64,000 nucleotides of DNA from Polytrichum commune (taxonomy: Eukaryota; Streptophyta; Polytrichopsida; Polytrichales; Polytrichaceae). This document shows positions 11,682 to 34,361 of this stretch, in pieces; the first letter of the stretch is position 1, and every line of letters begins with the position of its first letter. Under the pieces are notes generated by a model. It saw nothing but the letters and a program-made list of their open reading frames with translations, searched no databases and was not told the DNA's origin. The stretch covers positions 3,842,001 to 3,906,000 of the forward strand of contig OX485804.1 of the NCBI GenBank assembly GCA_950295325.1, read 5' to 3'. The position numbers were made by a program, and so were the translations under genes.

Positions 11682-11838
11682 CTATGCCAAATTTCAGAAA
11701 CAGAAAAGTCAACCAAACAAGTCTAGAAAGAGAGCTTACAGAGATGTGGTCAGGATCATGAATTGTGCACACTAACTTAGTGGTATGGCCAAGTGATTTT
11801 GCTAACATGTCTAATCTTAGTACCAACATATGAGTCAT

Positions 11839-14800
11839 ACGTCAATGAAAGATCAATGCAAATATGCCATTATGGTAGATTTGTAAAAAGTTTAGTGACG
11901 TAGGACAAGTTTTCAATGAAGCAAGTCAATTGATCAGAACTTTTGTACTTGTAGTGTGCAAAGATGTGGTTTAGTATGATCAATTTTGCACACTAACTTA
12001 GAGATAAGGCCAAGTGAGTTTGTTGACATGTCGATTCCCACTACGAGCATATGAGTCCTAGGCAATCTACCTATGTCGGTGAAAGGTCAATGCAAATCTA
12101 CGGTTATGGTAGATTTGCAAATTTTCCAGTGATAGAGGGCAAGTTTTCAATGCCACAAGTCAATTGTCTGGAATTCATGTGCTTGTAGTGTCATGATTGG
12201 GTATATAGAGACGCATTATCCATTCCAAACTAGGTGATCATGTATGTGTAGAGCCTTGTCATCAATTGTAGTAGGCACCCAATATCTATCCCACCGTTGT
12301 CACAGTTCCGTAGGTTGGGCGCCCACTCCAACCCATGGCTTCTACCATCCAAATGCAAAATTACAATTGAGATGCAATAGCTTTGGGAGTTTAAAGTGAA
12401 GATTATCTTTAAATTGCTAAGAAAATAGACAATAAGGACTTTGTACATTATATATGTACATCCCATACCCTACATTTCATAGCCAAGATTGGCACCATGA
12501 AATAAGTTTAATTTAGCTAGATACATATTGTGACTTGATTAAATTGTGCCAAGATTCAACTACAAGTGATAACTTCCTTGTATGGATACGAACCCTGTGC
12601 GGTAAAGGGATATTTTTAGGGGGCTATGTAGTATTGAACATATTTATGGGACATTCCATATATTTAAAGAATATTCTTGGAATGTCCCTAACATGTTCTT
12701 TGTATAAATTTCCAAAACCCTATATTGATTGTTAATTATTTCATAATTGTTTCTCCTATGGATTTTTATTCCACCCTATATGTTTTTGCACGTGACTATC
12801 AATATCTTCCAAAGAGTGGCCTCCCCGAAGCTTCAACTAAAACATACATTGCTTTTAGACCACACTACATATAGATCTAAGGGTTCAAGCATAGCGTTGC
12901 TAGAGGAGCTTGAGCATCCAAACTTAAAAGTTGAGTAGATGAACTTAACCACCTGATGGTTTTGAGGATGAATCAAGCGTCATATTATTCTGTAAGATCA
13001 AAGGTTGGTGAAACTTTCGATGAAGCAAACAATATGCACAATATTTCTCCCTTGGCGTTGTTGATGGGATGAAAGCTTCACAGGGAGAATATTCCACTTT
13101 CCCCATTGATGAAGACATCACATCTGACTCAAAACCTACACAAGAACTCAACAAAATGCACACAAAAATGACACAAAAATGAATGTCTTTGAAAATCTAC
13201 CTCATCCATAATATTGAAAGAGTTGATGAAAATTTAGCTCTCAAATCTAATTGAGTATCAAGTATATTTTGGACAAATTGAGATTATACAAAAATGGGTA
13301 TGTTAGCAAATTCTATAATAGATGATGCAAAAAAATCTCTAGATGTGGACCACATCTCATGTTATAAACACGTTTTTTTTGTATTTATGTATGTAACAAT
13401 TGCCTAACCTAGGTTCTAGACTTGTCCATATGTCCTTTTTACAAGGTGGATTGTCATCGATTATGATCTTTAGACCCCAATTTAGCTTAAGGACTTCTCT
13501 CCATCATCATGGAAGCGTCTTAATGAGAGATCTACATCACAAAACCTCATAAGATCAATTGCGGACAATATTACTTATTTACAATGATTTATAACATTTT
13601 CAAGAAAAACCCCATAATGTCATTCACAAAATGACATTGAAATACAGGCACTACATTGCCATTATAAACTTTTCGGCTTACTAGCATGATCTTATCAAAG
13701 CATTTTCACCCACACAGGGATCCTATTAATAGTATGTGATTTTCCTCATCAAACTTACCATGTGAGTCACATTGAATTTCTCAATCAAAATAAAATATAG
13801 AGGCCTTGTAAACAAACTTGAGCCAAGTTGGAGAGAGGGAGTTGTTACATACAAGCATATCTCTCATTCATCCAACATAAAAGCCCCGAAATAACATGCA
13901 ATCCCTTCAAGGTTTTTTTGTTTTGTTGACTTGACATCATAACTAGTTTTAAAGACCCAAAATTTCAAGATGAATTGGTCACAAACGTATGAGGGTCAAG
14001 TTTTATGTTAGATGAATGAGAGTTTCACTTGTATGCGATAACTCCCTCTCTGTGGCCAAGTGAATTGAAAGCCACCAAACCGAATCAAGTCCACAAGACA
14101 TCATTCCAATACACTAATCCATATTGATTGTAAGTGCATAACATTATTCAGATCCATAACACTGTTCAACGGGGCTGATAGTTTTCCAATTAATATGTAC
14201 CACATTCAAACTGAATGTGAAAAAATACAAGGAATATTCCCTAGAATGTTGTTAGTCCCATAGAACACTATTATGAATATGAATAATGTTAATGTGCATT
14301 TTCTCAATTCGTATATCTCTAAATGTAGGGTCCACCTCCAAACTCGCTCCAAAAAGGAGGCAATTTTCAATTATGAGAGGTTGTTTTATTTACGTCATAC
14401 CCAAGTTGGAGTTTCCATTCATATCATCAAGTGATAGTTAAGGAGGCAATTGCAAAATTTAGTGGTGATGTTAAGAATGTACTTATGATACTTTATATAT
14501 GGCAAACAAAGAGGTTTTGCTGGGTATCTAAGGATGAGAGGCCTAGGTGGCAACTTGAAGTTGATATTTACGACCTTCAAGATCTCTCCACAACGTGTAC
14601 CAACAAAACACACTTGAATCTTCAACCAATTGTGTTTCTTGTTTTCACTTCTAGTTATGGGTAAGATGTTTAATCAAAAGATCCTGTCAAATTAACACTT
14701 GGTGATTTCAAATATCTTTGATATCATTTAAAAGTCAAATCAACTTATAGAATCTAGAGTACAATAGAAAACAAGTAAAATTTACAAAGGCATGACAAAC

Positions 14801-16601: not shown

Positions 16602-18825
16602 GGATTCGTGGCACTCAAGTAAAGTCATCCGGTAACAAACATCGGATGAGTCCATCAAGAAGCTTGGATGGAGCTTACTTTAGTGAAACGCCTCTGAGTT
16701 GGCATGTAAGACCTATTTGCTCCTTTATAGCTATTGTGAACTACTAGCTATTTTGTAAATATCAATTAGTTTAGCAAGAGGCAACGATGTGGCATTGGAT
16801 GCTCTAAGCCTATTTTCTAACCTCCCATAAGTTGTTTCCAAGGCCATGATGTAGCTTTGAATTCCACATGGTTATTTTGATAAATATCGCAAGATATCAA
16901 CATGTGCAATATATAATAATGATGTGTTGTCATAGACATTTTTTGTTCATAATTCATTTATTTTGCGTGGGTGTGATTGTTGAAACATTTGTAATATGTC
17001 AAAATAATATATATCAACTTATGATAAATTGGTGAACTCAAAAATAAAGTCAATATGATTATTATTATTATTTGAAAATAATTAATATACACCATGTGAT
17101 TTTAAAGATAATACAATATTTGATGAGGATAAAATATTACAATATTTTAGATAGGCTATAGTCAGAAACTTATGATTTTCTGAGTATACCCCATCCATAG
17201 CGTTGTCCCACAAGTCTATTTCCAAATAACATACCATTTATTTATAGCTCATATTATATTACCTAAAAATAAGATTGATTTATATTCTTTTGTTATTCTA
17301 TGTTTATATTCTATGTTCATCATTTCATTTTGGTCATTTTATGAACACTTGCACTAATCTATCATTAGGATGACAAAGATAGTTTTAAGTCATAAAATTA
17401 TAACCTCAATGTTAATGAGGATTTTGTAATGTTTTTGACCTCCGAGTTAATTACGTGCTTCATTGATGGTTTCACTTCCGGAATGAAACCCCAATCAATT
17501 GCTTATTTACTAATTGGAAGTGCACATATATATTGAATTTTATACCTTGAAGTGAAGTGCACTCAATATGGGATTTGTAGTCAAGCGGCCTTCATGAATA
17601 CAAGGGCAATGTTTTTTTTTCAAAGTTGGGCGGGATGGGCAACAATTTTTGATTGGGTTCAGAAATTTCTTTAGAGGGTTGCCCTAGCCCAAATTTGACA
17701 CCCCCGAAAGTTCATGAGGGGGTATTTAATGTCCGCCCATATTAATTTCTTAAAAATAACCGGACTAGTAATGATAGGTTGGCAACACATGATGCACCCT
17801 CTTGTTGCAACGCATGAGGCATTTTTATTTTATCTAACCCCCTTTGTATTATTGCCTTAAGTATGGCCGGGGATTCGTGGCACTCAAGTAAAGTCATCCG
17901 GTAACAAAAATCGGATGAGTCCATCAAGAAGCTCGGATGGAGCTTACTTTAGTGAAATACCTCCGAGTTGGCATGTAAGACCTACTTTCTCCCTCATAGT
18001 TATTTTATAAATATTAATTAGTTGGCAAGGGGCAATGATGTGGCCTTGGATGCTCTAAGCCTATTTTCTAACCTCCCATGAGATGTTTCCAAGGCCATGA
18101 TGTGGCTTTGAATTTCACATGGTTATTTTGATAAATATCGTAAGATATCAATGTGTGCAATATATAATTATGAAGTGTTGTCATAGACATCTTTTTGTTC
18201 ATAATTCATTTATTTTGCACATGTGTGATTGTTCAAACATTTGTAATATGGCACAATAATATATATCACCTTATGATAAATTGGTGAACTAAAAAACTCA
18301 ATTCAATATTAGTATTAGTATTGTTATTATTAGTATTTGTATAATAGTATTAGTATTAGTATTAGTATTAGTACTAGTACTAATATTAGTATTAGTATCA
18401 TATAATTATATTTATTTTAAAGTAACGGTTATACAATATGTGATTTGAAAGATAATACAATATGTGATGAGGATAAATTATTAAATAATTCAGATAGGCT
18501 ATAGTCAGAAACTTATGATTTTCTGAGTAATATATACCCCATCCATAACGTTGTCCCACGAGTCTAATTCCAAATAACATATCATTTATTTATACCTTAT
18601 TCTCTTATAAACACTTGCACTAATCTATCATTAGAATGACAAATATAAGTTATTTATGGTAAGTCAAGCGGATTTTAGTGCACTCAATATGGGATTTGTA
18701 GTCAAGCGGCCTTCAAGAATGCAATTTTTGGTCGGGTTTAGAAATTTTCTCTACAAGATTGCCCCAACCCAAATTAGATACCTCCAAAAGTTCGTGAGGG
18801 GGTATTTAACGTCCGCCCATGTTAA
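16602..18825. repeat. Tandem duplication of a ~1-kb non-coding segment
   Basis: Segment A (about 16,602-17,745) and segment B (about 17,871-18,825) align in order. Both start at GGGGATTCGTGGCACTCAAG, share cggatgagtccatcaagaagc and the aatatcg(c/t)aagatatcaa block, and end near gggggtatttaa(t/c)gtccgcccat. They differ by indels, including an (A/T)TTAGTA microsatellite at about 18,308-18,402 present only in B. No coding frame is shared, so this is a duplicated non-coding or degenerate element. Confidence 0.75.
18308..18402. repeat. (TAGTAT)n-like microsatellite
   Basis: About 95 bp of imperfect TAGTAT/TAGTAC hexamers and related trimers, within the second segment of the 16.6-18.8 kb duplication. 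Confidence 0.75.
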
Positions 18826-19142
18826 AGCAAATATAATATGGGGTGTCAAAAATGACACTGGGCATCATTAAAGTACTATAGGGTATGGAACAAATCGATT
18901 ATTTGGATTTATAATTAATGCAAGGCCCTTTTCTACTAACCCAACTAAGAAAACTACATAATCATAGCATGTGAAGAAAAAATTTGAAAGTAATAACCCC
19001 ATATAAAATAGTGGTTGTTTGCACATGGATGCGCGATAAAAGAGAATTAGTTGTTACTAGACTCCTAATTGCATATGAATAGGACACAAATAGATGGCGA
19101 GCAACTAGTAAGGTCCAACACTAAGTGGACTACCACACTAAT

Positions 19143-19166
19143 GGGTTTAGGGTTTAGGGTTTAGGG
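19143..19166 (+). repeat. Short interstitial telomere-type motif (TTTAGGG)3
   Basis: Three tandem copies of the plant telomere heptamer in otherwise AT-rich DNA. Such short interstitial motifs are common near plant promoters and at repaired breaks; no functional conclusion is drawn. Confidence 0.7.
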
Positions 19167-21289
19167 TTATTTATTTCATTAGCATTTTCAACCTTGGGTT
19201 AATAGGAAAAGCCTTGCATTTCATATAATTCCAAATTACATATTCTTCCATACCCTATAGTACTTTAAAGATGTCCATTGCCATTTTTGATACCTTATAT
19301 TATTCTAAGTCCTGTTGTTCATTTTTAGTGTGGCCCACTGTAATATTATTGTACTTTCCTTGCCTTACATTGGATTTTCATCCAAATATTGAGATGAAAA
19401 ACCCACAGTAATGGAAACCCCTATTTTGAAGGGTATGCTATGTTATATTGTAGATTAACAACAACACCGTAAGTGTCGTCACATGACACTGGGTGTTTGA
19501 GTGCACTTATTAAAATTTTGACATGACATGCCATTAGTATGCTTAAGGATGTATTCCTCTTAAATATTAAAATGAAACACATGACACTTGCCAATAGTGA
19601 GCTTAAGTATCTTACCCTTGGGAATGTAGTGGGAATAAACAAAACAGTTTAATATGAACATGTACGTTATCACTATATCACAGTAGACAATATAGCAATC
19701 ATCCATGACAATGTTGCATCACAAGTTGCTAACATGAGAAGGTCAATGGATGAACTCATCCATCATCATGACATGGCTCTAAGTTATACAATGGGGTATG
19801 GGTTGGCATGTGAACTATGTTGAGGATCTATGATCATATGTTTACTAATTTCCAATCTCAATATGATATCCTTGTCCAATAATTCTTAAGTGAGTCAGTG
19901 CCTTTAGAATTCAAGTTGATGTTCCCTAAGACATTAATGTCAAAGCTAAGTGTTCATGCATGTAAATCATTCTCATCTCTAATAACTTATGGAGTTATTT
20001 TTATCTCTTTCATGGATTGAATGACCTACTTATTATTCTTCCTCTATTCAATTATATTTCAATATTTCAATTTGAAAGAGTCTCAAGACTTTATGTATTC
20101 CAAACCTACTCCTCGCTAAAGTATCTTTACGAGATTCCACAAACCATTCAATTCATAGAGTACACATGATTTACATGAATTCATTCATTGAAGTGTTTGA
20201 CCCATTTCCTATTCAAGTTCTCATTTCCGTAAATCTTATGCCATCATTTAGAATTCCCTTTAATCGATGAGGTATGGTTATGGAGATGCAATCTTAATAT
20301 TGCTCGAGATTCATGTGGTGCTTGATGTGGCCCACTCGTTGGCCACCTCCTTTGTCATCCTCTCAATATGATTTCGATTCCTATGTCTCCCGCAGCCTTG
20401 CATATCACCTTGTACTTCAATATGTTAGTTTCCAAAGTCCTTTCTCTTTAGTTGACCGCTAATTTTGGCTAAGTCCATATGTGTTGCATGCAAAACAACC
20501 AACCCCCACCCAAAAATTTGAGTGGGATAAATGATAACTCTAGTGCCTTTGAGAAGGTCATTCTTGAATTTGTGTTTTCGCAAGCATGTGTGTTCATATT
20601 AGATGTCGACTATGAACGTCAAAAATCTTAGCCAATGAAGAGCACATAATGAATCTAGTAATAATATAACTTAAGAGACAATTACAAGAATAAACGCTAG
20701 GAGAATGACTTTAAAGCCAAGTTATGAAGTGATTCTCAATGCATGGGGGTGAGGGCAAAGCCACAAAGAGATTTATGCTAAAATTGCTTTATTTTTTTTT
20801 TATGTTAAACGATTTATGTTCATTCCTAGTAGTATTTACCTATCCAGTAGGGTTTATTGGGTATGGGAGGTGGGCATGTACCCATTATGCGCGGCAAGTA
20901 TTATGTGTGATGATTTCTAATGGCCAGCAACTTTGATGCTTTATAAGTATCCATGGCCGCTTCTTATGTCATGCCATTATTTTCTTTGCCATAATATATG
21001 TTATATTTAAAATTTTGAATTCTTGGAACTCTAATGGTTCATAGTCCAAGAGAAAACAAGAGAACAATCGAACTTGAGTTCATGGGCTATGGTGAAAGTG
21101 GGCCTATTATGGATGCTCACGACTTCATCAATAAGGAATTGGAAATCATAGCTATGCTTGATGTCAAGCGCGATTGAACATCTTACACGCATATTATGAG
21201 AATGTGCAATTGACTTTGGTATGTTATAATAGGAATCTATGTTACAGAGTAGAATGTTAAAGTATGGAATCTATGTTATAATATGAATC

Positions 21290-21800
21290 TATTTTAAGCA
21301 TTATCAATACTATTACCATTTATCGATTGAAAGTGATTATTATTATTACTATTAATCACTACTAGTCACCCATTAGTAATTCATAATTATTAATCACTAT
21401 TAAACATTATTAATGACTATAATGACCTATGAAGCACTAGCATTCACTATTATTCACTACTAGTCAATATTAGTTACTATTAGTTACTATTACTGGTAAT
21501 TACTATTAATCACTATAAATCAATATTACTAATATTAACAATAGAGTGAATATGACAATTTACTAACAATAAAAATAATATCAATCATACTAATATGAGT
21601 TATCTTAATAAGTACTAATAATGAACTTACTAATATGAGTTATCTTACTAAGTACTGATAATTATCTTACTAATACGCAGTTATCTTACTAATTACTAAT
21701 AATTGTCTTACTAATACTTAGATATCTTACTAAGTACTAATAATTATCTCACTAATACTTAGATATCTTACTAAGTACTAATAATTATCATACCAATAGG
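21290..21800. repeat. AT-rich imperfect tandem repeat
   Basis: The left half repeats phrases such as attaatcactac and attagttact. The right half (about 21,590-21,800) repeats tatcttactaagtactaataatta(t/c)ct with intervening (c/t)actaatac(t)tagata. It ends just before the pyrimidine-rich start of the plus-strand gene at 21.9 kb. Confidence 0.7.
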
Positions 21801-21919
21801 GCGAACCTTACAAAGTACCAATAATTTTTTATCGCTACCTCCTAATACCATCATACCGCCCATCCCTCCTCAAAACGTACTTTAGCCGCCAAATCGCATA
21901 TCTCTTCGCGTCCCGAGAT

Positions 21920-22374
21920 TTCCTCCATCATGTCCCTTCGTACTAATGAGGCATTATGTGTCATGCGACTTCCATCTGCTCGTCATTATGGCAACATTTC
22001 GCACCCTCTCTCTCCCTCTCTCTCATTCTCTTCTCCCAATTCTTTCTCTTTTTCCTTCACCACTCTCCACTTTTCTGGAATGTTGTTGCAAAACTCTTCT
22101 CCCACAATTCTGAACTTGCTTTTCTTCTCTTCATTCTCTTCATTCTCTTCTCTTCATTCAATTCTTGTACTCCTTGTCTTGATTCTCTTCTCAAGAAAAC
22201 CCTGGAATAGATTCAGTGTGCATTTTCTTGGAATATGTGATAGTTTCTTGGTGAGCATAGTTGTTTCTTGCTCAATCCAGCATGTGGTAGTGGTGAGATG
22301 TGGAGAAGAGGAAGGCAACCCTGAAGCAAGTGGAGGGAAGTTCCAATCATGAAGAATTGAGAACCCACAAGCTT
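21920..22374 (+). other. Probable 5' untranslated exon of the H3-tail/ParB-like gene
   Basis: A strongly C/T-rich leader (tctctctccc and ttctcttctc tracts), typical of plant 5' untranslated regions, ends at a consensus donor (AAGCTT|GTAAGT, 22374/22375). An acceptor follows at 22,850 (TTTTGTGCAG). The 140-codon frame at 21930-22352 is low-complexity and I do not treat it as a protein. The transcription start is not determined. Confidence 0.45.
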
Positions 22375-22850
22375 GTAAGTTTCTGAACTCTTTCAATGTT
22401 TTGCACTCTCTTTCACTCTTTTGCTTTTTCTTTCAATTTCATTCTTCCTCTTGCTTGCATTGTAATGCTTGTGGCTATAAGTTGTCTGGCAGTGGTGAAT
22501 CACAGATAAATGATGAATGTCTGGAATGTCTTGACACTTGTTGCATAAGATACTAAATTTCTGGTGCATTAGGGTTTGAATTGCTTGAAGAATCTCAAAC
22601 CCAGAAATACTAGAGATTTGCATGTGAGTTGTGTGATGCTTGGGTGTGAAGAGTTGATTGAAATGTGAGAAGAATGCTCAAATCAGAATGCAAGATGAAT
22701 GACAAGAGGTTATGTTCATAAAAATGTGAGACCAGAATGCAAGAAGAATGTGAGACCATAATTTACCTGTTGAGATGTTTGAGAGTATGAATGTATTGCA
22801 CATGTAGACATAGTTTGAAACAAATGCTCTTGTGTTTTGTTTTGTGCAGG

Positions 22851-22902
22851 AAACCACATTCGTATTGAAAGAATTTTGACATGGTCCCACCAAAGAACCC
22901 TG
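22851..22902 (+). other. Short leader exon with a possible 9-codon upstream ORF
   Basis: Bounded by an acceptor (TTTTGTGCAG) and a consensus donor (CCTG|GTGAGT). It contains ATG at 22881 and eight codons (MVPPKNPG). If spliced to the next acceptor (TTTCATTCAG, exon from 24069) the frame gains one Thr codon and meets TAG, giving a tiny upstream ORF before the H3-tail ATG. Exon usage is inferred from splice signals only. Confidence 0.4.
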
Positions 22903-22977
22903 GTGAGTGTCCATTACATAAATCCCAGTTTTTTTGTTAGTGTGAAAGCGGTTATCTGAAAGTGGATATTTGAAGTG

Positions 22978-23236
22978 CCCACGGGTGAACACCCGTGGGC
23001 CTCTCCCCTCATATGGTTGAATGTGCCCACGGGTGTTCACCCGTGGGCTTTTGCACTCACCAGGTGGAGAGGCCCACGGGTGAACACCCGTGGGCCTCTC
23101 CCCCCATCTGGTTGAATGTGCCCACGGGTGTTCACCCGTAGGCCTCTCCCCCATCTGGTTGAATGTGCCCACGGGTGTTCACCCGTGGGCATTTGCACTC
23201 ACCAGGTGGAGAGTCCCACAGGTGAACACCCGTGGG
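22978..23236. repeat. Cluster of six 22-bp palindromes at ~47-bp period
   Basis: Six copies of CCCACGGGTG-TT-CACCCGTGGG, or its AA-centred complement, start at 22978, 23026, 23073, 23121, 23168 and 23215. Two copies each have one stem mismatch. The ~25-bp spacers are of two alternating kinds, one with a (t/c)tctcccc...tggttgaatgt phrase and one with a ttgcactcaccaggtggaga phrase, so the array looks like repeats of a ~95-bp unit in which the palindrome is the best-preserved part. Confidence 0.9.
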
Positions 23237-23859
23237 CAGTGGTGATTCTTCACAAGGTCCCTAACATGTCCAGGGACATGTTCATAAAGCAAAAGTTCAG
23301 TGGACGTGTTCGTAGAAAATGAACCGGTTTTTGGACGTGCCAAATTCACTGTGGACGGGTTCTAAAAATGAAAATTCTTTTGATACATTTTCCTAGAAAA
23401 ATGGTCTAAATATCAGTTACATTATGTCATATATGACATGTGAATATAAGCATAATGCAATCAAACCAGTAAAACCCAATCAAAATATCAATCTTGAAGT
23501 GCTTGATTCACCTGCATACATTAATTCTTCAACCACACAATTTAGAATGGGGTGGACTGAAAAGATGAGAATCGATAGAAAAAGACAAAAAACTGACGAA
23601 CATTGAAGGCATAATTTGTCAAGATCCTATTGTTTCCAAGTGCAACGAGTCACATGTCGATATCTTCGCTTTTTTCTGTTATTTTTTTCCTAATTTTGTA
23701 CCAACTTGTAAGAGACTTAACTTGTTTAGAAATTACCGGTTTCGGGACGGGTTGAGATTTTTTTTGCCTTTCAATTCAAGGTTTTTGGACGTGGACGAGC
23801 TAAAACTTTGTGAATAATCAGCCCTCCCGTGGGCCTCTCTCCTCACCTGGTTGAAAGTG

Positions 23860-23929
23860 CCCACGGGTGTTCACCCGTGGGCCTTTGCACTCACCTGGTT
23901 AGGAGTGCCCACGGGTGTTCACCCGTGAG
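23860..23929. repeat. Two further 22-bp palindromes
   Basis: Copies at 23860-23881 and 23908-23929 (the second with one mismatch), again spaced 48 bp and separated by the same ttgcactcacctggtt phrase as in the upstream cluster. A truncated half (cccgtgggcctctct) lies at 23,826. Confidence 0.88.
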
Positions 23930-24068
23930 CCTTTGCACTCACCTGGGTGGGAGATTTTATTTGATAAATGTCTTTTGGATTTTTTATGTAGACAAATTTG
24001 GTGTGTCTTTGTAAACATTTGAAGGTTTTAGACATAAACATGTGATAAACAGTTGGTGTTTCATTCAG

Positions 24069-24139
24069 GTACATAGAGGTGTCGAAGTGTTCTCTCATTT
24101 GAATTGAGATGGCAAGAACTAAGCAAACAGCCCGTAAAG
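24069..24139 (+). CDS. First coding exon: histone H3 N-terminal tail sequence
   Basis: An acceptor (TTTCATTCAG) precedes the exon, and ATG at 24109 opens MARTKQTARK, identical to residues 1-10 of initiator-bearing histone H3, including the Lys4 and Lys9 positions. The donor (AAAG|GTATAA at 24139/24140) leaves one base, which joins TA at 24243 to make Val. The continuation VSGGVGRR loosely follows the H3 STGGKAPRK spacing before diverging completely. No histone fold follows. Thus an H3 tail appears to be attached to an unrelated protein. The tail is the target of Lys4 and Lys9 readers and writers, so chromatin mimicry is possible; that role is inference. The match is directly visible; its expression is unknown. 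Confidence 0.7.
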
Positions 24140-24242
24140 GTATAACCACAATACCTATGTGCACGTCAATGTTATATGAGTTATAGAATTCGTGATAATA
24201 TTGGGCTATGCTGAGTACTAACACGTGCATTGTCTTCTGCAG

Positions 24243-26955
24243 TATCGGGAGGTGTGGGCAGACGGGTGAATTACGATGTTGAAGTTTTGGGCCCAGATTT
24301 GCAATGGTTCATGCAGTATAGTGGTTTCGGAGAGATAACGGTGCTCTCGCTTTACACGAGGACTGGGCCCAATTCCACATGGAGAAAGTACATGAAGGCA
24401 AAACATGTACTAGACATTCAAGCGGATGGGAGCCGGGTATTGATAATGTGCAAGTCGTCTGAACGGTAGAAGGACTTCAAGGTTGCAACACTCGTAGAGA
24501 CTTTCTCATATGCGGATGTGAATGAAGAGCTCAACAATGAGGGAGAGAACATCCGCTTATTGAACGGTGATTTCCTCACCTATTGTATAGTATATTGCGA
24601 GACCAATGTGCACACGAAGTCCGTGGAGGAGAGATCAGTAATGATCGAGCAGGACTACAAGTCTGCTCTAGCACGAGTGAAGGTTATAGTTGAGGAGGTA
24701 AAGACGGCAAGGTTGGAAGCATCTTTGAAGAAGAAGGAAATCCGTGATGGCAAGAGGAAGGATCCTGCTGATGTCCGTGCCACCTCGTCTAGGAAGAAGA
24801 CGAGACCCGATGAAGGACAACCACTGATTGTCGAAGACACTGCCGGCCAGGATGTTGTCTCCAAGAGAGCCAAGAAGAAAACATCCGAGGATAGTCAATT
24901 TCTCGAACTCGAGAAGATTCCCAAGCGATCAATGCATGGGCCTCCAGACAAATCAGTTGGAGACAGGTTGATGGATATGGAGTTGTTCAAGAACAAGTAC
25001 CAAAGGGTGTGGATATTCGGTGAAGGCGTGAATGGCTATATCAATATTGACAATATAGAGCGGGGAGATGCAGGGTATAATTGCCGACCCATATCCGAGG
25101 CGCATTTGAAGGAGATCAAGACATGGTTATTCAATTATGCCTTCATTCCGAAGATTCATTCCAACTTCTTGACAATCATTCCTTCGGATAGGCGAACTAA
25201 ACCATTCTTATTTGAGGAGGTGAAGGACAAATCGTTCCACGTGGTAAATGGACAACACACGTTAGCAGCCTGTCTGGAGTATGTGAATGACCCCAACAGC
25301 ACAGATGAGGTGAAGAGGTTTTTCTCGAAATGGCCTTGTAATGTGGTCTAGGCCCCTGAAGATGATGACGACCCTCTGTTCCACCTCTCTGGCGTTCTGA
25401 ACCTGGATAGTGAGTACAGGAAGCACTTTCCGTCATTTACGGAGTGCATTCAGCACGCTAGGAAGATTTGGATTAGGCGAGGAAGACCTTACCGAACTGT
25501 ACGCGAGAAGTCCAGCAACACGGAAGCTTTTAAGAAGTAGAAGGTATATTTCAAATCTGTGACTTTTGAATTTCTCATTTTTGTGACTCCCACGGGTGTT
25601 CACCCGTGGGCGACTATCATATTGTTGATGATTGATAGAAATACATGGAAGTTTTTTCATAGAGATTGATACATTGCCGGTGTTTGATACAGACATTCAT
25701 TACGTGCGTCATGTGGACGTTCCGCGTGGAGAAGGAGACCAACCTGATCATGAAGCACGTCTTGCCTGTATTGAGCGATGACATATGGAGGAAGTGGGAG
25801 CGGATATTCAAGGATTACGAGAGTGGTGACTATGTAGACCCGAAGACCGGAACTCTTATAAAAGAGACAAAGGGGTTTAAGTCGAAGAAGGTGGTCAAGA
25901 ACGATCTGAAACAATTTCGGGGCTTGACAGAGATGGAGCTCGACATGGCAGCGAATCAAATCCTCACCACCAGAGATGGAGAGGAGCACCCTCGACATAC
26001 CTTGAAGACTGTGCGCGATTGGGTACTGAACAGGAAAAATAAGAATGAAACTTATATCGCGATGGCACAGTGTCTAGACCCGACTCCATTGTACATTGTT
26101 CACGTCGATCAGAAAGAGACCATTGATCGTGATTGTTGGAGAGTATGGAAGTATGCGAATAAGTTTGGTAAACTCTAGCGAGAACGACTTGTAGACTTGC
26201 TTGGAGCGGAGTACCTTCTTGGCGCTATGAACCCCACAAGGAAGAGATACCTATTCCGGACCGGTTTAAAGAAGGAGTGAGGAACATATTAGGTACACAT
26301 AACACCGAGGTTACACCTGAGCATGTCGTGTTGTCTATTGACAACAACTACAAATTCAGTGGTGGGACAGTGCTTGCACCAGTCCTGCACGCGTACATGG
26401 ACACAAGGTTTCTCCCCGGAGTCCAGGCGGGAAAAGACACTGGGGGGCGTGTGAAAGAGTGTATGGATTCCACTCTGCAAGGTCTTCGTCGTGATTTCCC
26501 AGGCATTTTAAACACCCCCCAATTGTGGACTGTGATTTTGGAATATCCGGATCGGCATTTCATTCACAATGTGCTGAAGGCGCACCTGCCGAGCAACGCC
26601 AGATTTTGTGACGCCTTATACCATGGCATTAAAGAGGAGAAAATTGCATCTCGCGATTGCTTCTTCGAATCAAATGCTCTTTAGGGGTGAATCAAGTTCG
26701 GAGGTGGCTGTGCGGCTCTGTGGAGGCCGGAAGATGTTGGACGTCCATGACTCGGGGCGATATAAACGTTATTCAGTGAAAAGGGCGTATTCCAATGAGG
26801 AGGCCAAGTGTTTATTCAAGGGGGAGTTGAGGATGCAGACCTACATAGATATCATCAAGCCTTCATGTCTTGAGGGGTCTTTTTTTCTCAATATTTGTGG
26901 AGGCAATAAGGCGCACATAGTGGCACATGTAAATAATGAGCATCTTTTCCCCTAA
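24243..26955 (+). pseudogene. ParB/Srx-like domain protein joined to the H3 tail, broken by TAG codons and frameshifts
   Basis: Exon 24243-25543 continues the H3-tail exon in phase, and exon 25693 onwards continues from it in phase 0 (donor AAG|GTATAT, acceptor GATACAG). Order: an unrecognised ~130-residue part; a Lys/Arg-rich segment with likely nuclear-localisation clusters (KKKEIRDGKRK, SRKKTR, KRAKKK); then a ParB/sulfiredoxin-like region (YINIDNIERG, RPISEAHLKEIKTWL, FHVVNGQHTLAACLEY) with the xxGQHxxA signature. A ~400-residue C-terminal part is not recognised. In-frame TAG codons occur at 24467, 25349, 25538, 26176 and 26682. The frame shifts between 26,176 and 26,277 and again near 26,680; the last frame ends with TAA at 26953-26955. 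All five internal stops are TAG. Likely inactive as it stands unless exons or decoding differ. Confidence 0.6.
25589..25610. repeat. 22-bp palindrome within a predicted intron
   Basis: A perfect copy of CCCACGGGTG-TT-CACCCGTGGG, located in the intron between the ParB-like exon and the next exon. Confidence 0.9.
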
Positions 26956-27033
26956 GTGGTTCTTGAATTTCTGAGTATTATCGTTGGTTTGGATGGTGTT
27001 TTGGATAACCTAATCATAAACCAGGTTGGGAGG

Positions 27034-27055
27034 CCCACGGGTGTTCACCCGTGGG
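27034..27055. repeat. 22-bp palindrome upstream of the acidic-protein exon
   Basis: A perfect copy preceded by ccaggttgggagg, a phrase resembling the spacers of the 23-kb cluster. Confidence 0.9.
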
Positions 27056-27227
27056 CCTAGACATCCACTTGCTTTATATCCACCTGGTTGATAGCCATCT
27101 TCTCGATAGCTTTCCTGACAATTAGTTGGTTGACAAATAGTTGGGACTATTGGTTTAATTCTTTTCGCTTTTGGATGTAGACTAATTTGATTGAGAAGTT
27201 ATTTATCTTATGCCTTGGTTTTTGCAG

Positions 27228-29021
27228 GCATTGGGTATGAAGGTGTTGAATATTGTGCCGGTAGAGATGCTAGAGGTGGCGAAGACGAAAATGATTGCCG
27301 CAGTTGACTGGAGCCTACAAAGGTGGAATGTAGAAGGAAAATTCGCTGCCCAGGATTTGGAAGAGGAAGAAGGGCGTATCGATGTGGATTCCATCATTGA
27401 GCGCGAGATTGGAAGAAAGCGTGCGAATGACACAAATGAAGAGGACGTAGAAGAGGAGGAGGAGGAGGAGGAGGAAGAGGTGGAGGAGGAAGATAACCCA
27501 GTTGTTGTCCTAGGGGAGTCTGCAGAGGAAGAGGAAGAGGCCGACGAAGACGAAGAGAAAGAGGAAGAGGAAGAAGAGGAGGAGGTGGTCATGGACGAGG
27601 CACTGGCGGAGGCCATGGCTGAGGTCATGGCAGAGGTGGAGGAGGAGGCCTTCAATTTCAAGGCGTCGGCCATGGCGGAGGCCTCTTTGGAGGCCATGTC
27701 CCCGGAGCAGGTTCCCCACGGGTGTTCACCCGTGGGGGAGGGGGAGGGGGAGGGGGAGGAGGAGTGGCAAGAGGATGCTTCCAACTTAGAGGAAGTTGGT
27801 CGTCCACAAGCCGAGCACAGTGTCCATCACCCTGTGGGATCTTTCTCGTCTGGGATCCCATCTACACCCGGCCGCGGGTTTGCACAGTTTGATACATCTA
27901 GACGAAGTCAAGAACAACTAGATGTTCAACCTATGGAAGAATATGAGGAGGATGAGCGTCCGCAGTCAGCTAATCCTGCTGCAAGGTCTGCATCGAAACC
28001 GACTGCAAGAAAGAAAATGAAAGCTCCTCGAAGGGGAAGGTCATCTCTACGTCCCCCTAGAGTTGGAGATTACTCGCGGTCTTCGGAGGCAACGGAGCAT
28101 TCTGGTCTTTATCGCGAGGTTGAATCTGGCCAAGCGGATGTGGAGGATGTTCCGCGGGATGCAATCATGTCTGAAGCTGTGCATGTTGAAGGGACAAGCA
28201 CAGATTTGAACGTCAGCTCACCTGTTGAGGACGTTGCCGTTGCCGTTCTCGAGGTGCTAGGACATGGGCGATCGAATCGTGATTCACTTGGTGTTGTGGT
28301 TGCAGAAGAGCCTACTGTAGCGGCACCATCCAATGAAGCAGAGGAGGTTATTCGAACCGAAGTCATATGCTTGGATAGTGATGACGATGTGCCGGAAAGA
28401 TGCGTAGAACTAGACGTGAGGGTGAAGGTGAGAGATCGAGTTCCATATCGGGTTCGGGGGATGTTTGCTGACTACATGACGGATGATTCCGAGGATGAGG
28501 ATTATGGGAAGCCCGGGTACAACAGAGTGAAACTCAACTTTGTTGATGACCCTCACCCGGTGTTTGCTGGGAGACCTGACATGGGCAAGGAATCGGATGG
28601 GAAGGACAAGGTGCATTTTGCCCCATTTGTGGACAAATACTTGGTAGATGTGCCCGAGAACGTGCGATTGAATCTTGCGCATTTGTACAAGTCGTACGAC
28701 TATCACAAGATGTTCGCTTATCTCTCCACACCAGCGTTTTGTGAAGCAGTGAAGGTGAAACATATTCTTCATGCCGCTGCATTAAAGAAAATGAGAAAGA
28801 GATGGACAGCGTTCGAAGCTCCCAAACATCGTGAAGAACGAGGTCAATTCGCGGGGTCCTCGGCCGCTCAAGCCGGCAGTGTTGTGGACTCTACGTTGGA
28901 GATCATTGACATTAGTGGAGTGCCAGAGTCTCCAAGGAAGGAAGTCAATGTTGCAGTTGCGGAGTCCTCAAGCCCTCATGTCGAACGTGTTGCTGAGGGT
29001 CAACCGGCATCGTCCGAAATG
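27228..29021 (+). CDS. Long exon encoding an acidic, disordered protein (unrecognised)
   Basis: The acceptor is TTTTTGCAG at 27227 and the donor ATG|GTAATA at 29021/29022; the exon is exactly 598 codons, phase 0 at both ends. It begins ALGMKVLNIVPVEMLEV, then has a Glu-rich tract (about residues 75-135), a Gly/Glu low-complexity stretch that contains an in-frame 22-bp palindrome (27715-27736), and a Ser/Arg-rich basic region (KKMKAPRRGRSS). The C-terminal third is more ordered (VRDRVPYRVRGMFADYM, YDYHKMFAYLSTPAFCEAV). Acidic tracts plus basic clusters suggest a nuclear or chromatin-associated protein, but I recognise no domain. Without splicing the frame stays open to TAA at 29088-29090. It may be the 3' part of the H3-tail/ParB-like gene or a separate gene. 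Confidence 0.6.
27715..27736. repeat. 22-bp palindrome inside the open reading frame
   Basis: A perfect copy lying in frame within the acidic-protein exon and read as PHGCSPVG. Immediate flanks are Glu/Gly codons, so it seems to have been added to or arisen in a low-complexity coding tract without breaking the frame (22 bp alone would shift it, so flanking bases must compensate). Confidence 0.9.
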
Positions 29022-29107
29022 GTAATACATACTCCCTTTCCAATGCTATATTGTGTTTGGCGGTGGAAGCAAACTCGTCAAGATTTCTAAAAGTGTCTTT
29101 GCAACAG

Positions 29108-29198
29108 GTGTTGGTTGCGGCAGAACGGGATGTCATTCCACCGAGTTCTCATGACGACCCTGCACATGGTGGGGATCCCCCCCTAAGCCAAACTCAAG
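29108..29198 (+). CDS. Small exon following the acidic-protein exon
   Basis: The acceptor TTGCAACAG and donor CTCAAG|GTATCA bound 91 bp. It continues the previous exon in phase 0 (MVLVAAERDVIPP) and ends in phase 1 (PPLSQTQ). Low-complexity, no motif. Supports the intron predicted at 29022-29107. Confidence 0.5.
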
Positions 29199-29232
29199 GT
29201 ATCATATATAGTGTTATTTGAATGCAATTGGT

Positions 29233-29357
29233 CCCACGGGTGAACACCCGTGGGACCACCTGTTTATACTTTTCAATTTCCATACAAATTGTTATCTCTC
29301 GAGTAATATTTATATAAGGGATTTTTGATATTGTGCCCACGGGTGTTCACCCGTGGG
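29233..29357. repeat. Two 22-bp palindromes in a predicted intron
   Basis: Perfect copies at 29233-29254 (AA-centred) and 29336-29357 (TT-centred), both between the small exon and the FCP1-like fragment. Confidence 0.9.
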
Positions 29358-29617
29358 AGATTATGGGTTTGAGCGTGTGGATCTCATAAGTCATGTGTGC
29401 ATGTGGTCACAGGTCATACAGCCACTGCCGGAATACCACCTTCGGTACGATATTTTACTCGATCTCGCAAAACTAATCCATAAATGTGGAGGCATTCTTT
29501 TATCTTGCATACTCATGTGTACCCAACGTGTTGTTTCATTCGATAAAAATCATGTAGAATATACTTTTTCCTTAGATAGAAATCCTTTACAATGACTTTC
29601 AATTTTGTCATCGCCAG

Positions 29618-32600
29618 ATCCTCACCTCTCCAACCACTGTTGTCCATCGGAGAGAGAAGATATGGTTAGTGCTGGATGTGAACGGGATCCTGGTGAGGTC
29701 AACAAAGTGCGACAATGTCAACACCAGGAAGACTCTTGAATCACAACATAGCCCTCAGATAACTGGGGAGTTGGTTCCACTCTTTCTCCCATATAGTGCC
29801 CTCATACCTAGGAAAGGACTGGGACGCTTTGTAGTTAGCTTTTTGGTTACAAACAAACCCAGGGAAACAATCAGGGAAGACTTAAAAGGTGATTCTTGTA
29901 TCATCTAGGTGTCTTAGACAAGGTTTGTTAGGTAAAACACAAGGTTATAACACTTCATTTCCATTTAGGTGTGTCAATTAGTTTACGGGCAGGGGTGAAA
30001 ACACCTAAAAGATCACTCCATAGCAGTGCATGCAAATGTGACAGTCTTTCACCTCACTCTACTTTCCCAGTCAATGGTTTGGCAGTGAGTTCATTTTATT
30101 TGGACCAAGTGCGGTGCAAAATCATAGGCACAACCATAGTCAATAGTCTTGCAATAGTATCCCATTTTAGTCTCGGTACCAAAGCCACGGGCACTTTGGA
30201 GTAGTCAATAATCTTTCCTTAATTAATCATGTTTAATGAAACTTGAAATGCCTGTCCGTAATCCATTCAGGATAGTCCGTTTTCATTGATTAATTTGGAG
30301 TTTAATTACACAGTCCGACCATAGTCTTTTTACCTGATTCATATCAAATTAATCATGCGCTCGGTCAATGCGTCAATAAACCATCACCACATATGCGCGT
30401 CAACATATACTTACAACACTCTTAGGCTCGTTGATTCCTATTAATGTTCAAATGCATATTCTTAGATAATATCCATCTTAGTCCTCAAGGTATGTCTCTG
30501 ATTATTATTATGTCAAAGAATAATTCAACTCTCAAGATTAACCAAACGTTACATTAGTCTTCCTTGCCTTACGAAATCAAGGTATAAGTCAATTATACTT
30601 ACCACGAGAACAGCACGTCCATTGGCCTCTTTGGTATCATTTGGTGCTCCGCAGACAATGGCCTTAACAAGTTACATCTCACAGTCCATTCGGGGATAGG
30701 AACAGTTTCCCCATTTGCACTATTATGACTCTAGACTTAAGCCTCGCTCAATCAAAACAACTCAATGCAACAACAAGCTAAGTCCATTTACCTTATACTC
30801 ATGACTCCGAAAGATTAGTTTGACTGTGCTAAAGTTACTTTCCTATACTGATTTGGAATTATCTGACAGTATGTATAAACATTCTGAAACTGATGATGAA
30901 GAATGTCACACCTCCTATACTTAAAACCTTTAAATATTGGCAAACTATCACGAGGGAAACCAAACAGTGTGCTATTCCTTCAGTACTAGCCACTGTTGTT
31001 AAATTTCACTACGTGCTTTCTCTCAAGACTTATTCCAGTGATGAATTAATTACCACAGGCTAATAATCCACTCGAATAAACCTAAGACGATAATCTTCAA
31101 GGTCCAGATTCCTAGTTTCGCTCCCAGTAATGGCTAGCCGAGACTCGGATTAATTTATGCAACCACAATTTCTCACAGACCATAGCCTAGGAACCTATCT
31201 CCCCTGATCAAGACATTCTCTGCAGTTAATAAAGCGAGGGTAGAACACACAACCAGATTATCCTCTAATCCGTAGTTATTGCAGATTAACACGTCTATAA
31301 CCTTTCCATTGCTCAATCAACTCTGCCAATAAAGATGTAAAAGTCTGCAATTCAAACAAGATAGAACCAGCAAACGAACTCGACTCGAAATTGAATTAGA
31401 GTGTCGTGGAATTTGGGAATATAACCGCAGTCAAGTTAATGCAACAATTTCTGTAAGGAGCAATGCCACCATCCTCACGGCACATACAAGATCTCTCTTA
31501 TCAAACAGTTCTCATCACAAGATCCCTCACAGTTGCACAAAACAACGACACCAAATGTATTTATCTTATTCACATATCATTGGCATACCAACAGCCTATC
31601 AATTAGAATACTTCGTATGATTCTGAGAATCCGACAACATTGAAAATTTCACCAAAAGCACTCAAACACTGCCAATTACGCTCGCGACCGAAAGATAGTT
31701 CTATCTCAACCAGCCAAGCAATTGCAGTAGAAAAATAGCATCAAATAAAAGATAGTATATAACTCTGCCTTCCCCGGCTCTCTCAGCCTGCTCCTCTCGA
31801 GAGCTTTTTTCTCTTCTGCCTAGCCTATATATTCCTGTGAAACTGCCGAGCCTCCAACTGCCACAGTTACTAGTCTATAGCCCTTCCAACTGCTTACTCG
31901 GCTCTTTTTAGATTATAGCCCTTCCTAGCCACTGTTTAGTTCCTACCAGGCTATTGTCCTTTCTTCACCAGTCTAGCTAGGATGTATCTAGCTATATAAA
32001 GACAATATTCACATCAGTTCAATTTTGAGCAATAAAATCCAAAAATTAACTACCACACGCTTTCTGCGTTTTGTTCTTTCAAACTTCCATGTTGTCATCT
32101 GGTCGTCGAAGCTTATGAAGAATCTTCAGCCAATTGTCCGGCACTTCTTCAATGGTTGTAGACATCCAGAGTATGTGTTTGGGCAAGAATTGTGTCACAC
32201 TCTGAAGGATGAGAGAGGACAAGTTCTTCCTAGTCCTATGAATGCTGATTCAAGCTTCTTCATGAAAGACCTGTGCGCATTTTTTGAGTGGAGCCGGACG
32301 CATCCAGTGCCGCATACGAAGCAACCCAGTCATAGGACTACATTACTTGTTGATGATTCCCCTTACAAATGCATCCCAAACCCTCCTGGGAGCTACATTA
32401 ACCCTCCCCCATTTATGTCAACCCAAAGCTTGGATACTCTGCATAGTTACCTGCAAAGGCTCTTGAGTTCTCAACAGTATGTGCCAGATTTTGTGGGGAG
32501 CAACCCTTATCCATCAGGACAGGGACCCTTCAATCTAGAGCTGCCAAGTTCTCTGATTTATAAGCAATCATTAGCTAGACATAAAATACTGACTTCTGCC

Positions 32601-32633
32601 CGTATGGTTCCAGAGGCTCAGATGTTAATGTAG
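29618..32633 (+). pseudogene. FCP1-like (HAD/NIF) phosphatase-domain gene split by an insertion
   Basis: The left part (29618-29830, acceptor CATCGCCAG) has REKIWLVLDVNGILVRS, the FCP1-homology motif 1 in which the second Asp of DxDx(T/V) is Asn, as in many plant FCP1-like proteins of unknown activity. The right part (32057-32633) has FVLSNFHVVIWSSKLMKNL (motif 2 region, IWSS), HTLKDERG, FFMKDLCAFFE and TLLVDDSPYKC (motif 3, conserved acidic pair and Lys), then a C-terminal tail ending at TAG 32631-32633. Left and right frames join in phase at the CGC TTT codons when the 2,226-bp segment between them and one ACGCTTT copy are discounted. The part before motif 1 is missing or in unseen exons. 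Disrupted by the insertion, so probably non-functional. Confidence 0.72.
29831..32056. mobile_element. 2,226-bp insertion in the FCP1-like gene, class unassigned
   Basis: Flanked by a direct repeat ACGCTTT (29824-29830 and 32057-32063), possibly the preserved part of an 8- or 9-bp target duplication. The ends are weakly inverted: GTAGTTAGCTTTTTGG on the left and, reversed, GTAGTTAATTTTTGG near the right end. The interior has no long frame; it is moderately AT-rich and its last 250 bp is pyrimidine-rich (ctctcagcctgctcctctcg, then tatataaag). It could be a MULE or hAT derivative or part of another element. Confidence 0.6.
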
Positions 32634-32875
32634 ATTCCCTATTGGGGCCGCCTATAGTGCACATTTGCACTATCGGTACATTGTATTTGAAATGAGTGGA
32701 TCTGAAACTTTGTTGCCTTTCAACTTCATTTGAAACTTGTTTTGGTTTTGTGGATTTTCTTCATGCAAACATGTCATGGTCATGAATGTATCTCACTGGG
32801 ATTCTACTACTTTGCAACACTGCGGTGTTAGAGAATACCCGACTATTTCCAACCACAGTGAATGTCTGGCATTGT

Positions 32876-32896
32876 CCCACGGGTGTTCACCCGTGG
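32876..32896. repeat. Palindrome copy, slightly shortened
   Basis: CCCACGGGTG-TT-CACCCGTGG, lacking the last G of the full motif. Confidence 0.85.
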
Positions 32897-33156
32897 CAAT
32901 GTGGTAGTTGATTCAATGAATGTATTAGGCCACTTGGACAATGTTAGTTGTGTTTTTGGGAATTATGGTTGTCATAGCGAATTTTAATATGTAGGACTTA
33001 GTCGGCTATAATTCATATGTTTTGAACATGTTCATCTTTACTACGGGGCAACGGACGGGCTCCTCTTGCACATAATGTCCTTCTTCCATGGACTCTTATG
33101 TTATTGTATCCTAACAGCATTCCCCATTCCAAACGCGACCTAAGAACTATATTGCC

Positions 33157-33702
33157 AGTCCACCATGTCGACAACGTCCTCCGGATGCTAACGCCGACTT
33201 CGCCGAAGTGACATCTCCATGCCCTAAGGTAATTCATTTTCCACATGAATCCCAATTTTTTTAGTTGTGTTTCATCCCAGGGATTCTAATATCAATTTGT
33301 CGTTTGTTGTGGTAGACACATATGCTCCAAACACGCGATGTTGCGCTCGCGGTTGCGGTGGATGTTCCGGTCGCGGTTGAGGAGGCTGTTCCGGTCGATG
33401 TTGCGGGTCCGGTCACACGCGCTCGGGTGAAGAGACACCTTTCTCTCCAAACCACTCACCCCAGTGAGCCCACGGGCTCGGGAAATAGTTCTGGATGTTG
33501 GAGGTGTAGTTCACCCAATACCACCTCATCCATGTCTGATTACGTGGCTGCAAGGGTGAAACAACTTCGAGAAGCTACAGTTTTGATGGAGGAGAAAAAA
33601 CGGCTTGAAGAAGTCAAGCGCAAGCAATGTACTATAGCTCAAAGACAACCTCATGACAAGATGTTGAAAATGATTAAGGATTCATACTCCTCTTGTAGAT
33701 AG
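33157..33702 (+). CDS. Small two-exon gene, unrecognised product
   Basis: A proposed exon (about 33,157-33,228, donor CCTAAG|GTAATT) reads ...DANADFAEVTSPCPK and joins in phase 0 to exon 33316-33702 (acceptor GTTGTGGTAG), which begins THMLQTRDVALAV. The second exon has a Val/Ala/Pro-rich stretch, a Ser/Thr-rich middle and a basic Glu/Lys-rich helix (VKQLREATVLMEEKKRLEEV) ending SSCR and TAG. It may be the C-terminal coiled coil of a transposon accessory protein. The start codon is not fixed; the frame has internal ATGs at 33322 and later. Confidence 0.4.
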
Positions 33703-33727
33703 CCGGACCTTTATGGTGATAGATTTT

Positions 33728-34279
33728 CCACGGGTGTTCACCCGTGGATACAACAATTCATATACTTTGTTCACATTTTTTGTGCCCACTGTGGCATCTA
33801 TGATTCATTCAAATGATTTTTTGACCCTCATTTGTGTAGTCGGATATGACATGTAGACCTTCCTTCATGTGTTATGGATCTTGCATCGTGTGTTGCATGG
33901 CGTTGATTGGTCACGGGCGTTCACTCGTGGTTAAATGTATTTGTATTCTCTGAGTAGTATTAAGTGCCCATGATAGCTTTTATGATTAGACCCATTATAT
34001 TTGCATACATTTGTTGACATGCGCATGGTTGTTCCTTAGTGGTGTCGACTTATGTTGTATTATGGATATACTAGGCTCATCTGTTGCGGGGTGTTGGTTG
34101 GTCACGAGTGAACACCCGTGGTGACAACTGGGCTAAGTTTTTATGTGGGCTAGAATATGCATTATTTTAGCTTATATATATACACCAATGTGCATGAAAT
34201 AGTGTGTTAGTCTATGTTGATGACCTTCCTCTTGTTCTAAACCTTGTCAATGATGGCAATTCACGGGTATTTACTCGTG
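33728..34279. repeat. Series of progressively degenerate palindromes
   Basis: Copies at 33728-33747 (20 bp, perfect stem), 33912-33929 (CACGGGCG-TT-CACTCGTG), 34103-34120 (CACGAGTG-AA-CACCCGTG) and 34262-34279 (CACGGGTA-TT-TACTCGTG). The first is perfect; the others show C/T or G/A changes. In the last copy the changes are compensatory, so the stem is kept. Confidence 0.75.
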
Positions 34280-34361
34280 AACCACGTTCCCAATGCACGT
34301 TCCCATCGGTACGAATTGTCTCATAATGGCCCAATTGGCTCATTTTAGTTAATATCCCCAT

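Follow-up and report, generated by a model that had tools for sequence, protein, structure and literature searches.

A conserved histone H3-like N-terminus encoded in a giant, probably Sola-like DNA transposon of Polytrichum commune

In the portions of the literature drawn upon here, Sola elements are described as generating 4-bp target duplications, as able to exceed 15 kb and as occurring in the moss Physcomitrella (PMC10741241), and the 21.5-kb Sola1-1_Ec32 of Ectocarpus carries, on the strand opposite its transposase, a ParB-like and methyltransferase gene whose product has been suggested to attach to the element that encodes it and to modify that DNA (PMC12477816). Element-encoded anti-silencing is known from the VANC proteins of Arabidopsis VANDAL elements (PMC5735166; PMC10398659), with tandem-repeat motifs that differ between subfamilies (PMC5735166). 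The SNAG tails of the DNA-binding proteins GFI1/GFI1B and SNAI1 are similar to histone H3 and recruit LSD1 (PMC7649360). The present study concerns a gene, repeated in the genome of Polytrichum commune, whose product can begin with a copy of the H3 N-terminal tail and is probably an accessory gene of a giant, Sola-like cut-and-paste DNA transposon. The gene was noticed in a stretch of 64,000 nucleotides (assembly GCA_950295325.1, contig OX485804.1, positions 3,842,001 to 3,906,000, forward strand), referred to as the window, and positions within it are counted from its first letter.

The tail gene of the window copy consists of a small exon followed by three larger coding segments:
24069-24139, plus strand: small exon with the H3 tail; ATG at 24109, reading MARTKQTARK, phase-1 donor GTATAA at 24140
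24243-25543, plus strand: exon 2, VSGGVGRR.. to ..KKWK in intact copies, with a Lys/Arg-rich centre
25693-26928, plus strand: exon 3, ends placed from splice-like signals; reading frame interrupted in this copy
27228-29021, plus strand: acidic low-complexity coding exon, ends placed from splice-like signals; open frame 27195-29090

A first-pass annotation, made from the letters alone, had described the small exon, a second exon from 24243 and an in-phase MARTKQTARK junction between them, and each of these was recovered as described. The acceptor of the tail exon reads ..TTCATTCAG, with its AG at 24067-24068, and the spliced reading of the tail exon and exon 2 is MARTKQTARK-VSGGVGRRVNYDVEV. Two host H3 genes start MARTKQTARKSTGGK; without the initiator methionine, the transposon tail matches residues 1-9 of H3, together with Gly12-Gly13. 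The genuine host H3 genes sit at other genomic places, and the 444-residue product of the tail gene has no Pfam match, to a histone fold or otherwise. The window copy itself is not a working gene, because exon 2 contains three in-frame TAG stops (24467-24469, 25349-25351 and 25538-25540) and the match to exon 3 is split into three stop-bearing pieces. The layout given by the first-pass annotation therefore stood, but the three stops had gone unmentioned, the end that it gave, 25351, is the second of them, and the copy is decayed and left-truncated. In many other genomic copies the exon 2 open reading frame (ORF) is uninterrupted along its full stretch. The full gene product appears to be large, comprising exon 2, exon 3 and the acidic region, and possibly more, because exons 2 and 3 are continuous, with no intron, in the L017 lineage (the L017 copy has one stop), and exon 3 and the acidic region share a single frame, of 1171 residues within the piece read, in the L014 lineage. 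The continuity in the L017 lineage also led to the exon 2 ORF being dropped as a stand-alone gene.

Copies of the tail are numerous in the one genome to which all copy counts refer (408 Mb). With up to three mismatches allowed, the 33-nucleotide exon plus donor has 50 genomic matches, 17 of them exact, and its reversed pattern has none in the 408 Mb. A degenerate search for codons reading ATG-A-R-T-K-Q-T gave 73 matches (control, 0), which by position comprise 54 tail exons, 17 host H3 matches and two out-of-frame accidents. The latter (C1:23458709 and C1:74611202; MARTKQTTKQ and MARTKQTTRQ) were rejected, as neither is followed by a donor and both fall outside the frame of a different repeat. 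In L047 and L048, a repeat other than the transposon encodes MARTKQTT outside its main frame, a natural chance match to H3.

A search with the downstream ORF returned 100 rows among the matches listed (97 of 802 candidates scored). The 57 rows reaching the 5' part were used, and 25 distant relatives (23-28% identity) and 18 others (3' fragments and decayed pieces) were left out. A tail exon lies upstream, by position, in 55 of the 57 rows, at distances of 1.4 and 2.4 kb in two of these, and direct reading of L020 added one further exon, MAKTKQTTRK, giving 56 of 57. Only the decayed C6:5458949 (L022) is without one among these 57 rows, and C6:42679128 has a tail exon without a matching ORF row. 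The first-pass view that the H3 match is unlikely to be due to chance is borne out by these 50 copies against none for the reversed control and by the 56 tailed rows among 57 that are 5'-complete. It had also been expected that relatives of the protein would share the H3-like start. This holds for close relatives (62-100% identity), except for the one decayed row, but does not extend further: no tail was found on reading C7:7910827 (L028; 43% identity, 13 stops, among the 18 rows left out), or in the DNA read for ten distant relatives, which form a separate branch.

The exon sequences read number 57, namely 50 from the exon search and seven others. As the 50 were found by similarity, variation is underrated among them, and loci found via exon 2 are free of that bias. 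Exactly MARTKQTARK is encoded by 37 of the 57. Counting from the initiator methionine, M1, A2, T4, K5, Q6 and K10 are invariant, T7 and R9 are each kept in 56 sequences, R3 is replaced by K in two, and A8 by T in 17 and S in one. Selection on the tail codons, which the first-pass annotation had proposed to examine in relatives, was assessed on a tree of 20 loci out of 25 with the exon, L002, L007, L021, L023 and L024 being excluded for deletions, frameshifts or decay; changes were counted by parsimony, and the values are rough. The ten codons show nine silent changes and six replacements, all six of them at codon 3 or codon 8 (R3K, A8T/S), with a ratio of replacement to silent rates (dN/dS) of ~0.19 (binomial p=0.0018 against neutrality). 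The remaining ORF has a dN/dS of ~0.24, and by replacement rate the tail comes 61st among 399 windows of ten codons, with the lowest values around GQHTLAA; constraint on the tail thus appears about equal to that on the whole protein and not exceptionally stronger. In the L017 lineage (~72% identical downstream), the same ten residues are written with different codons at positions 4, 6, 7, 8 and 9, and downstream of the tail the Gly12-Gly13 of H3 is invariant in the 20 loci. These patterns support the tail as coding sequence that is conserved within a mobile element, and the earlier suggestion of a mobile origin is likewise upheld, with conservation at the protein level through mainly silent changes between diverged lineages.

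The carrier was delimited by comparison of copies on C1 and C4. The C1 copy (copy A, C1:48452758-48477718, ~24.96 kb) begins ATGGGGATATTAACTAAAATGAG and has an inverted copy of this at its other end, the two termini agreeing at 22 of their first 23 bases. The flanking 4-bp target duplications are ATCC/ATCC on the C1 copy and CATA/CATA on the C4 copy. The transposon has spread recently, because the C1 and C4 copies share 99.8% identity across the 19.4 kb that were compared. Given its terminal inverted repeats and, in the two copies examined, a 4-bp duplication, the carrier is a giant DNA transposon, probably of the Sola-like, cut-and-paste kind, in which the tail gene is an accessory; 4-bp target duplications are also produced by other transposon superfamilies. 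Near the left end of copy A, the minus strand carries a 692-residue open frame matching DUF7869 (2.4e-46). This gene, on the strand opposite to the tail gene, is probably the transposase; the literature search found no paper on the domain. Among the DUF7869 matches listed (part of 150 rows, of 1491 candidates), one lies upstream and on the opposite strand within 60 kb of at least 47 of 56 tail exons, and within 26 kb of at least 44, the distance being 14.4-16.9 kb in at least 29 of the 56. Three pairings beyond 33 kb may be due to chance, because DUF7869 is frequent in the genome.

The copy in the window is less complete, and on the plus strand exon 2 is followed in order by exon 3, the acidic exon and an exon of the NIF/FCP1 phosphatase type:
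17863-34361, plus strand: window transposon copy, left-truncated or rearranged, right terminus at 34361 (blastn against the C1 and C4 copies)
29618-29830, plus strand: NIF/FCP1-type phosphatase-like exon, first part, up to a nested insertion
29831-32056, no strand assigned: nested insertion of ~2.2 kb that splits the phosphatase-like exon and is absent from the C1 copy
32057-32635, plus strand: NIF-like exon, second part; Pfam NIF 4.7e-7 for the window frame and 3.8e-11 for the C1 copy
34339-34361, minus strand: right terminal inverted repeat, the reverse complement of ATGGGGATATTAACTAAAATGAG

The left ~9.9 kb of the intact element, with the DUF7869 gene, was not found at this copy. Change of the DxDxT motif in a NIF/FCP1-type phosphatase would mean loss of activity; in both lineages read (window 29618-32635; L049:3766-4449), the phosphatase-like exon has DVNGI in its place and looks like a retained but inactive enzyme.

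A further property of the element is a repeated 22-bp palindrome, CCCACGGGTGnnCACCCGTGGG. With up to three mismatches it has 15 sites in the window, all within 22978-33748, and none in 100 shuffles:
22978-23236, no strand: tandem array of 47-bp units, with six copies of CCCACGGGTGnnCACCCGTGGG, two having one mismatch
23860-23929, no strand: two palindromes, one having one mismatch, a short way before the tail exon
25589-33748, no strand: seven scattered palindromes, starting at 25589, 27034, 27715, 29233, 29336, 32876 and 33727, the last two with one and two mismatches respectively

The tandem units upstream of the tail exon measure 47-48 bp, and further sites occur elsewhere, including within the acidic coding frame. 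Genome-wide, exact sites number 644 and the reversed pattern 0; among the sites listed, 50 in number and all from C1, 37 have a tail exon no more than 45 kb away. The palindrome differs between two clades of the element. In clade 1 (15 loci: L001-L013, L026 and L027), the ninth position and the one paired with it are T..A at each of the 64 strict sites, with no C..G, and clade 2 (L014-L021) has 27 strict sites with C..G and three mixed. Of the four loci outside both clades, only L024 has a strict site, a single one of the T..A type; L022, L023 and L025 lack any. A change of both arms across whole arrays is as would be expected of a site bound by a symmetric protein. Four of the ten distant relatives read (L031, L035, L036 and L037) show clustered perfect palindromes of their own, of different sequence; in L035-L037 these number seven to 12, share a TTTCACTCGATCGAGTGAAA core and lie in tandem upstream of the ParB-type gene.

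The ParB-type motif of the protein lies in exon 2, where GQHTLAA is encoded at 25250-25270. N-G-Q-H-x-x-A is invariant across 18 aligned sequences from both branches (NGQHTLA in the window), and the label 'ParB-type' is used here at motif level. Alignment by hhalign with a single phage-type ParB-methyltransferase gave no significant match, and neither did hhalign comparisons with three phage-type ParB-methyltransferases and the L067 family. No methyltransferase domain was detected by Pfam (E up to 10) in exon 3 or in the window pieces; by eye the end of exon 3 recalls methyltransferase motif I, an alignment that was not significant. Searches of PDB sequences with profiles gave nothing usable. 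The best PDB match of exon 3 (whole-sequence E 0.0073) was a designed cytochrome trimer, aligned by way of three weak repeats, and was rejected; a TrfB/KorA match (E 0.24) is a lead only. The phage collection contained no relatives of the ORF, and none was encoded by the 23 viral-contig stretches that matched a peptide pattern.

Other ParB-type genes occur in the assembly. L067-L070 (C1:9662150, C4:44111740, C5:16865322 and C4:20357736) form a repeated family with an N6/N4 methyltransferase-type domain, PF01555, above the cut-off in the C1 and C4:44111740 members and below it in the other two. DIPYG is found in L067 and DIPDG in L068-L070, and L070 has a GNHRxxA ParB-type motif upstream of the methyltransferase; the family is likely a transposon ParB-methyltransferase. 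Like the tail family it is repeated and has a ParB-type motif, although only in L067-L070 is a methyltransferase recognised by Pfam, and kinship of the two was not significant by hhalign. Separately, the four genomic ParB_N matches fall on contigs C10, C12 and C23, whose ParB and methyltransferase genes (L057-L060, L064-L066) appear phage- or bacteria-like (L057 compared). As a guess, these could be assembly contamination, given that the product of L057 shares 75% identity with an IMG/VR contig and matches phage genes.

About 1.2 kb upstream of the tail exon lies a possible alternative start:
22850-22902, plus strand: mini-exon U; ATG at 22881, reading MVPPKNP, phase-1 donor GTGAGT

A U-like exon of the same phase could be aligned in nine of ten upstream regions, several of which come from the same lineage (the window and copy A included; not in L076), with the variants MVPPKNP, MAPPKNP, MVPPKKP, MVPTKKP, MTPPRKP and MSRPKKT. 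Joined directly to exon 2, U gives an in-frame, tailless MVPPKNP-VSGG... Because U and the tail exon share their phase, this arrangement suggests that the tail exon could be alternatively spliced, giving two alternative N-termini.

The explanation favoured here, with somewhat better than even confidence, is that the tail protein binds the 22-bp palindromes of its element and that the H3-like N-terminus recruits or decoys factors that bind the H3 tail, such that silencing is reduced. A protein would be produced from the transposon accessory gene. It is an established rule that the initiator methionine is removed before alanine; the N-terminus would then be ARTKQTARK, as in residues 1-9 of H3, and the predicted N-terminal peptide of the tailed protein is ARTKQTARKVSGG. 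The large ParB-type protein would bind the palindromes of its own element, which cluster ahead of the gene and recur at scattered places elsewhere in the element, a step suggested by the two-arm change between clades and by precedent. Set in arrays along the element, the H3-like tails could engage proteins that read or modify the H3 tail, either as a decoy, by occupying an H3K9 methyltransferase or reader, or by recruitment of an activating, H3K4-side factor, and the local balance would move away from silencing. The first-pass annotation had likewise proposed imitation of H3 to recruit or decoy chromatin factors. In H3 numbering, the invariance of T3, K4 and Q5 favours K4-side readers or enzymes. 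A more specific version, in which a palindrome-addressed protein with an H3 1-9 tail is toggled by a cassette exon and the element is coated in false H3 tails that engage silencers or activators instead of nucleosomes, is put forward tentatively, at somewhat less than even confidence.

Several observations weigh against this explanation. Ala8 (Ala7 of H3) is replaced by Thr or Ser in 18 of 57 sequences, which speaks against strict recognition of the K9 side, yet K9 is invariant and R8 nearly so; Ser10 and Lys14 of H3 have no counterpart in the transposon tail. The silent rate per site is ~1.35 in the tail and ~2.47 in the rest of the ORF, and because tail silent sites change less, part of the constraint may act on RNA or DNA. 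Skipping of the tail exon keeps the frame, and for this reason most of the protein may lack the tail. When U is spliced to the tail exon of the window copy, a short frame, MVPPKNPGT and a stop, precedes the tail ATG, which would then need re-initiation or leaky scanning. With regard to DNA binding, the ParB-like label of the first pass retains its GQHxxA motif but gains no match to a ParB_N or ParB profile (Pfam, E up to 10), and the structures modelled for exon 2 (from 18 sequences) and for exon 3 (from nine), with mean predicted local distance difference test scores (pLDDT) of 37 and 39, are unusable. Of the 50 palindrome sites listed on C1, 13 have no tail exon within 45 kb, and six of the ten distant relatives show no palindrome by the tests applied. 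The counts for the two clades are not independent, because sites multiply by tandem repetition and transposition, and they may reflect one coordinated change.

The same observations bear on four other explanations. The tail exon is immediately preceded by the palindrome arrays, and a SNAG tail recruits a repressor (PMC7649360), as would suit self-restraint, in which the tail of a palindrome-bound protein brings in an LSD1-type demethylase complex and represses its own promoter as a form of copy-number control; the many near-identical copies argue for successful recent spread, and this possibility is considered unlikely. The N-terminus could instead be a short basic peptide for nuclear import or contact with DNA or RNA, converged on H3 and without a chromatin partner. 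The tail is indeed short and basic and precedes a Lys/Arg-rich protein, and mini-exon U is likewise basic, as well as proline-rich. Convergence of this kind is nevertheless quite unlikely, as the non-basic T4 and Q6 are invariant, T7 is kept in 56 of 57 sequences and the match extends to the invariant Gly12-Gly13.

The tail might alternatively link a transposition complex to H3-tail-binding proteins and thereby choose insertion sites or donor chromatin. The tail gene does travel with the putative transposase gene, most often ~15 kb away, but the putative transposase frame of copy A carries no tail, and such targeting is thought very unlikely. Least probable, and highly so, is a captured, functionless fragment of host H3, or an exon that is retained because it serves as a signal in splicing or in DNA rather than for its protein. 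The host has intron-bearing H3 genes, two of which the tail matches at 24 of 30 and 22 of 30 nucleotides, values that decide neither capture nor convergence, and the silent sites of the tail are somewhat constrained. Against this, replacements fall below the neutral expectation (p=0.0018) and are limited to two codons, and flanking and intron DNA diverges between lineages.

Among the neighbouring sequences of the window, four copies of one large gene are present on the minus strand (6888-9449, 37853-40345, 47567-50278 and 61299-63859), with frames of 853, 830 and 903 residues and a fourth that is split in two; two of the copies contain 93-bp internal tandem repeats. A TIR-domain protein is encoded at 11083-11841, also on the minus strand (Pfam TIR 1.3e-24), and the window contains a short GGGTTTA repeat.

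Histone mimicry has been documented for viruses and some host regulators, and influenza NS1 is one such mimic. At the level of DNA, the tail gene belongs with them, in that an H3-like sequence is conserved in a non-histone protein, and with EZHIP and ORF8 it would share the copying of histone sequence to engage chromatin enzymes. To our knowledge, none of EZHIP, ORF8 and influenza NS1 reproduces H3 1-9 at the N-terminus of a transposon protein, and no transposon-encoded H3 tail was found among the titles and abstract openings listed for histone mimicry in open-licence PMC. If the favoured explanation is true, a selected, exact H3 N-terminus on a protein that probably addresses its own DNA would represent a novel route by which selfish DNA deals with chromatin silencing. 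The natural variants A7T, A7S and R2K (H3 numbering) could help to show which H3-tail interaction matters, and the palindrome difference between clades offers a built-in test of binding specificity.

The comparison with known systems, as far as the cited portions of the literature describe them, can be summarised as follows. In common with Sola1-1_Ec32, the tail element is a very large DNA transposon, with an accessory gene opposite the (here putative) transposase and a ParB-type motif, and it shares the 4-bp duplication of Sola elements; in contrast to Sola1-1_Ec32, it adds an H3 tail, has an exon 3 without a methyltransferase profile match and is ParB-like by motif only. As with VANC, short motifs are clustered in tandem repeats within the element and differ between subfamilies, and the element is proposed to encode the factor that acts on them, whereas the transposon and, apparently, the protein are different ones, the site is a 22-bp palindrome and the N-terminus is histone-like. 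With the SNAG factors, the tail protein shares an H3-like N-terminal tail on a (here putative) DNA-binding protein. SNAG resembles H3 more loosely than identity over residues 1-9, and SNAG proteins are cellular regulators, whereas the tail described here is identical to H3 1-9 and is encoded by a transposon.

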